Origin: Fibrobacter succinogenes
Lineage (GTDB): Bacteria; Fibrobacterota; Fibrobacteria; Fibrobacterales; Fibrobacteraceae
DNA length: 64,000 nucleotides
Reading direction: 5' to 3'
Assembly (NCBI RefSeq): GCF_902779965.1
Contig: NZ_CACZDK010000007.1
Location: 1-64,000 of the forward strand
Shown here: positions 22,715 through 25,062 of the stretch, piece by piece
How the letters are laid out: each line of letters starts with the position of its first letter
Numbering within the stretch: position 1 is the stretch's first letter
Made by a program: the position numbers and the translations under genes
Notes under the pieces: model-generated
What the model was told of the DNA's origin: nothing
Database searches by the model: none
The model's input: the letters and a program-made list of their open reading frames with translations, nothing else

Positions 22715-25062
<2,348 letters not shown>

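Follow-up and report, generated by a model that had tools for sequence, protein, structure and literature searches.

Which promoter serves the dnaK gene of this Fibrobacter succinogenes contig, and is its control shared with other chaperone genes? Sigma-54 is usually viewed as a specialist factor that is absolutely dependent on an activator, and perfect matches to its promoter had originally been predicted upstream of both dnaK and grpE, together with a shared RpoN heat-shock or surface-stress regulon. The relevant features of the window, which is the whole analyzed stretch of 64,000 nucleotides, are the following:

14890-14905, plus strand: predicted grpE sigma-54 promoter, TTGGCACAGTATTTGCTAA / TGGCACAGTATTTGCT, 11/11 match, 62 bases upstream of the ATG
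14968-15678, plus strand: grpE ORF, above the cut-off of model NF010738
23111-23126, plus strand: predicted dnaK sigma-54 promoter, 16-mer TTGGCACGGCTTTTGCTAA / TGGCACGGCTTTTGCT, 11/11 match, ending 76 bases upstream of the ATG
23111-23116, plus strand: dnaK −24 element TGGCAC, sequence match
23122-23126, plus strand: dnaK −12 element TTGCT, sequence match
23203-25062, plus strand: dnaK ORF, TIGR02350 with 963 bits, above the cut-off
25429-26574, plus strand: dnaJ ORF, identity confirmed by a curated model

The sequence, coordinates and strand of the dnaK site as well as its distance of 76 bases to the start codon were all verified. Both the dnaK and the grpE site correspond to the consensus TGGCAC-N5-TTGCW, with the GG at −24 and the GC at −12 spaced by 10 bp, and they are the only perfect sigma-54 matches in the window. 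Transcription of dnaK would be expected to start near position 23137. For dnaJ, the predicted lack of a sigma-54 site was borne out, since none was found in the gap of 367 bases after dnaK; dnaJ also has no palindrome of its own of the type described below. Between grpE and dnaK, a RelB/DinJ-type antitoxin gene was found on the minus strand (22412-22771), which probably forms a toxin-antitoxin pair with the short ORF beside it (22113-22415, minus strand).

In the genome containing the window (4.09 Mb, 76 contigs), 18 strict sites of the TGGCAC-N5-TTGCT type were identified versus 3 for the reversed pattern, which is a sixfold enrichment, and the genes downstream of all 18 sites were inspected. 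Five sites precede the chaperone genes groES, grpE, dnaK, htpG and clpB, the latter being identified from a two-thirds fragment that scored 900 bits with TIGR03346. Other strict sites were found at secA, spoVG, a rhomboid protease gene, a gene for a sigma-70-family factor, two porin-like genes and a nitrogen group composed of gltB, purF and glnB, with dapF nearby. The remaining strict sites look like chance matches.

For the analysis of conservation, upstream regions from Fibrobacter contigs and relatives were searched with a threshold of at least 10 of 11 positions. All five chaperone genes to be compared according to the original prediction carry the site. For dnaK, where a lack of conservation in related species had been named as a possible counter-argument, the opposite was found, as the site is present in 33/33 genus regions, all of them with 11/11 positions. 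At the threshold, it was detected in 36/36 (grpE), 18/18 (groES), 16/16 (clpB) and 16/17 (htpG) genus regions. These counts are not independent because the genomes are related, although hardly any of the upstream sequences are identical. The dnaK gene itself was not found in 7 of the 19 Fibrobacter assemblies (G002, G011, G012, G013, G016, G017 and G018), one of which is rated 96% complete; these are probably assembly gaps at a highly conserved gene.

It could be argued that the sites are chance matches to a loose consensus. One-mismatch matches were indeed as common as in shuffled sequences, and relaxing the pattern to TGGCAY doubled the number of hits, many of the additional ones being intragenic. 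Against this, orthologous genes keep the site across the genus, and every shuffle and reversed-pattern control gave the contrary result; among 3,540 dinucleotide shuffles of upstream regions, 15 scored at least 10/11. Chance is refuted for all practical purposes, in agreement with the original view that two full matches are hard to attribute to coincidence, and positions 23111-23126 almost certainly represent a real sigma-54 promoter as judged from the sequence comparisons. A TGGCAT site (TGGCATAAAAATTGCT, 10059-10074), located 118 bases upstream of a GH5 cellulase gene (10177-11814), was not counted because many genomic TGGCAT sites fall inside genes; it is probably a chance match.

A second element, absent from the original prediction, is common to groES, grpE, dnaK and htpG. 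It is the palindrome GTTTCA-N3-TGAAAC, the pattern of which was refined by comparison of four promoters. The copies in the window are listed below:

14856-14870, no strand: grpE palindrome GTTTCACATTAAAAC, 34 bp upstream of the −24 element, proposed activator site
23075-23089, no strand: dnaK palindrome GTTTCAGAACGAAAC, 36 bp upstream of the −24 element, proposed activator (enhancer) site
23073-23091: extended form of the dnaK palindrome, TTGTTTCAGAACGAAACAA

A stricter pattern (TGTTTCNNNNNGAAAC) was rejected, as it matched only dnaK and htpG among the chaperone genes. The palindrome occurs at six places in 4.09 Mb, four of which are groES, grpE, dnaK and htpG. Since the reversed-pattern control is equally frequent genome-wide, the signal lies in the location of the element and not in its number. 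At least 11 of the 12 positions are kept in 31/31 distinct genus regions of dnaK, 17/17 of htpG, 17/18 of groES and 21/36 of grpE, the latter increasing to 35/36 at a level of at least 10/12. The proportion of shuffles matching at these levels was at most 0.0013 (0.13%). In the sharp sequence profile, the half-sites GTTTCA and AAAC hardly vary. No palindrome was detected in the 16 clpB upstream regions tested, nor was it found in the grpE regions examined from Bacteroidota and other outgroups.

The distance between the palindrome and the −24 element varies by gene and species, taking values of 25, 35, 46, 56, 67 bp and so on. For groES, grpE and dnaK this spacing is helical, with a Rayleigh R of 0.64 for 21 merged spacings (p ~2e-4) and a best period of 10.5 bp; the phasing is a pooled statement, and single genes peak at 10.0–10.75. 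In the case of htpG, the palindrome always follows the first T of the −24 element at a distance of 52–53 bp, which is about 26 bp past the expected start. FleQ is known to act from such downstream positions, which htpG would require. Conserved and helically phased, the palindrome is likely to be an activator site.

The genome encodes one rpoN gene (Sigma54_DBD) and eight bEBPs. In sister families of the same class, a bEBP gene is located downstream of dnaJ, in the order hrcA-grpE-dnaK-dnaJ-bEBP (family f3) or grpE-dnaK-dnaJ-bEBP (f4). The f2 genome G019 carries the single cluster groEL-(palindrome, 24 bp, sigma-54)-grpE-dnaK-dnaJ-bEBP, and such a bEBP is also encoded downstream of grpE-dnaK on a further Fibrobacterota contig (L064). 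In a tree of 65 proteins, the dnaK-linked bEBPs of the three sister families form one clade (100/100 support), which has exactly one orthologue per genome in the six Fibrobacter genomes compared, here L106 (G000:C4). For assigning the activator, domain content by itself was dropped in favor of the tree and the gene linkage.

L106 contains a PF00158 AAA+ domain with Walker A motif (9.8e-70) and a Fis-type HTH (HTH_8, 1.6e-13), and its nearest solved chains are 4l4u and 1ny5 of the NtrC family. The recognition helix SR[AS]TLWRK is uniform in the L106 clade, and other Fibrobacter bEBPs differ there. The sigma-54-contact loop is GSYTGS compared to GAFTGA, so that the Thr is kept, the Phe is changed to Tyr and both Ala are changed. 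At the phospho-Asp position of the receiver, Glu is found in Fibrobacter, Ala in f2 and Ser in f3, and Asp occurs only in f4; L106 lacks the phosphorylatable Asp of an NtrC-type two-component regulator. In Fibrobacter, the gene is not located beside dnaK and shares a conserved operon with genes for a histidine kinase and for a stand-alone receiver. A search of this operon for an autoregulatory palindrome revealed nothing convincing. Tree and linkage together point to an L106-type bEBP as the probable palindrome-binding protein.

The repressor HrcA was found in none of the 21 Fibrobacterales genomes (19 Fibrobacter and 2 of one sister family), whereas 9 of the 10 genomes from f3 and f4 have it. 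At groES of the Fibrobacterales no CIRCE element could be identified at up to four mismatches, and the sigma-54 motif is found there instead. The sister groES regions examined (seven of f3 and one of f4) all carry CIRCE (8/8) and have no sigma-54 motif. In f3, the groES regions L163, L164, L167 and L168 show a palindrome about 95 bp upstream of CIRCE, a sigma-70-type promoter and no sigma-54 motif; in several f3 genomes, the palindrome is found at a similar distance ahead of the sigma-70/CIRCE groES promoter. Upstream of grpE in f4 lie two copies of the palindrome as well as a near sigma-54 site (TGGCACGGTCCTTGAA), notwithstanding the presence of HrcA. The simplest history would be one in which palindrome and activator arose early in the class and existed alongside HrcA, before HrcA and CIRCE disappeared from the Fibrobacterales.

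The f3 palindrome occurs without a sigma-54 motif, therefore the protein binding there need not be a sigma-54 activator. This bears on the explanation that the sigma-54 promoters are real and some other protein, either a repressor or an activator other than a bEBP, binds the palindrome, with the promoters being opened by another bEBP or by one without site-specific binding. Also in favor of this explanation are clpB, which has the promoter without the palindrome, and the htpG palindrome downstream of the start, where a repressor could equally sit; moreover, the Fibrobacter candidate is unlinked to dnaK and seven other bEBPs are encoded. The helical phasing to the −24 element, however, indicates contact with the polymerase, the half-site geometry 5-N5-5 is that of NtrC sites, and the palindrome-carrying cluster of f2 and f4 ends with the bEBP gene itself. 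This explanation is consequently considered improbable.

Equally improbable is that the sigma-54 promoter serves only as an auxiliary, condition-specific start. Chaperones are required under all conditions, and a tandem arrangement is known in Chlamydia (PMC8762339). A simple consensus scan of the plus strand from 22794 up to the start of dnaK, which is not exhaustive for the phylum, detected no sigma-70-type site, and the sigma-54 motif is kept at all five chaperone genes, both of which speak against this explanation.

The preferred reading is that the dnaK site is a functional RpoN promoter belonging to a bEBP- and palindrome-driven chaperone regulon that replaces HrcA/CIRCE, for which the case is good. 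The promoter architecture, the phasing and the protein families are evident from the sequences; how the promoters would be used and the palindromes occupied is inferred. RpoN holoenzyme would transcribe groESL, grpE, dnaK, htpG and clpB in Fibrobacter, with a closed complex waiting on TGGCAC-N5-TTGCT. An NtrC-type ATPase, most likely the orthologue of the dnaK-dnaJ-linked bEBP of the sister families (L106), would bind GTTTCA-N3-TGAAAC, mostly 25–220 bp upstream of the −24 element and in htpG downstream of the start. From the phased palindrome it would hydrolyze ATP and, by remodeling at the −12 element, turn the closed complex into the open one. Positive activation would thereby take the place of the HrcA/CIRCE repression absent from the Fibrobacterales. 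The signal is somewhat more probably heat or unfolded protein than anything else. The clpB gene has probably either a degenerate site or another activator; it may answer to another activator because clpB of Flavobacterium falls in a different expression cluster (PMC9723704), together with a rhomboid gene and apart from groESL, dnaK, grpE and htpG.

The activator may ancestrally have been encoded in a dnaK-dnaJ operon and could therefore be restrained by DnaK/DnaJ or GroEL themselves. Sensing of unfolded protein by such chaperone titration would be the sigma-54 analogue of the sigma-32/DnaK loop, which is a tentative idea. Similarly speculative is the full scheme, in which the HrcA repressor circuit was swapped for a purely positive one, leading from a degenerate-receiver NtrC-type ATPase and chaperone titration via sigma-54 to all main chaperone operons.

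With groES, clpB and htpG carrying the site, its conservation in relatives and one rpoN gene, there is strong support for the shared RpoN chaperone regulon of the original proposal. The designation as a surface-stress regulon is not supported, as the set comprises mainly cytoplasmic chaperones and a separate nitrogen set. The regulon is also less novel than had been implied, since equivalent sigma-54 chaperone sets have been published for Flavobacterium (PMC9723704) as well as for Bacteroidota and Planctomycetota in general (PMC12316311).

The nitrogen genes carry the palindrome TTTACA-N5-TGTAAA instead, which is perfect at dapF (twice) and purF, matches in 11/12 positions at gltB and is weak at glnB; there thus appear to be two sigma-54 sub-regulons with different activator sites. 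The nitrogen loci L002–L005 are located on contig G000:C2, which also encodes the NifA-like GAF bEBP L107, probably the nitrogen activator. The rhomboid protease gene (L007, G000:C6:40700-40715, minus strand) carries a copy of the clpB (L010) promoter, sharing with it a block of about 60 bp far upstream, the sigma-54 site and a remnant of the clpB start (ATGTCCGTTTTTACTAACGATGCA), so that its promoter looks like a capture by duplication. The gene L015, encoding a sigma-70-family factor of 270 aa, has a strict sigma-54 site (G000:C26:79325-79340) 36 bases ahead of its start. Its best curated match is RpoS, below the cut-off, which is reminiscent of an RpoN-to-RpoS cascade; against RpoH it reached 126 bits, far below the cut-off of 323. 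L012 and L016 (G000:C20 and C32) are paralogous porin-like genes with strict sigma-54 sites and a common inverted repeat (TTTTGTAACAC...GTGTTACAAAA) downstream of the promoter.

A literature search yielded no useful published heat-shock or TSS data set for Fibrobacter. An acid-stress RNA-seq study of F. succinogenes includes Cpn10, purF, P-II and one subunit of glutamate synthase in a selected list of genes induced at pH 5.65 (PMC5442110), which is compatible with the present picture. Gene knock-out tools for Fibrobacter were stated to be unavailable (PMC5442110).

Taken together, it appears that in a whole bacterial order the essential chaperones have come to depend on sigma-54, whose members no longer possess the common heat-shock repressor. 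This regulatory replacement is traceable because the sister families show a possible intermediate with HrcA/CIRCE, the palindrome and the dnaK-linked activator. It bears on the stress tolerance of a key fiber- and cellulose-degrading gut bacterium.

Sigma-54 control of chaperones as such is already known from Bacteroidota, Planctomycetota and Chlamydia. In the literature searched, the new aspects are, as far as found, its occurrence and depth in the Fibrobacterota, the palindrome and its phasing, the coupling to the loss of HrcA and the dnaK-linked activator candidate. For Flavobacterium psychrophilum, sigma-54-type (SM4) starts were mapped upstream of groESL, dnaK, grpE-dnaJ, htpG, clpB and a rhomboid protease gene, a gene set nearly identical to that of Fibrobacter. 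This bacterium belongs to another phylum, and no activator or enhancer element is assigned in the sections of the report drawn on here (PMC9723704). A survey of Bacteroidota and Planctomycetota from 2025 describes GroEL, GroES, GrpE, DnaJ, DnaK and Hsp90 as enriched downstream of predicted sigma-54 promoters; Fibrobacterota are not named in its text, and no enhancer palindrome, activator or HrcA loss was found in the sections drawn on (PMC12316311). For Bacteroidota and Planctomycetota, no activator of the sigma-54 chaperone promoters is assigned in the literature found; Fibrobacter offers a defined site and a single candidate activator.

Chlamydia is similar in having a sigma-54 start upstream of grpE-dnaK and the NtrC-type activator AtoC; it differs in that HrcA is kept, rpoN is reduced on heat shock and, in the sections drawn on, a single chaperone operon is reported (PMC8762339). 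The HrcA/CIRCE regulon, which is present in the sister families, also controls groESL and grpE-dnaK, but its control is negative compared to the positive control proposed here, and HrcA and CIRCE were not found in Fibrobacterales. With NtrC- and FleQ-type control, the proposed system shares the AAA+ ATPase with Fis-type HTH, the 5-N5-5 half-sites and the phased upstream sites, whereas the candidate has E, A or S in place of the receiver phospho-Asp in three of four families and GSYTGS for GAFTGA.
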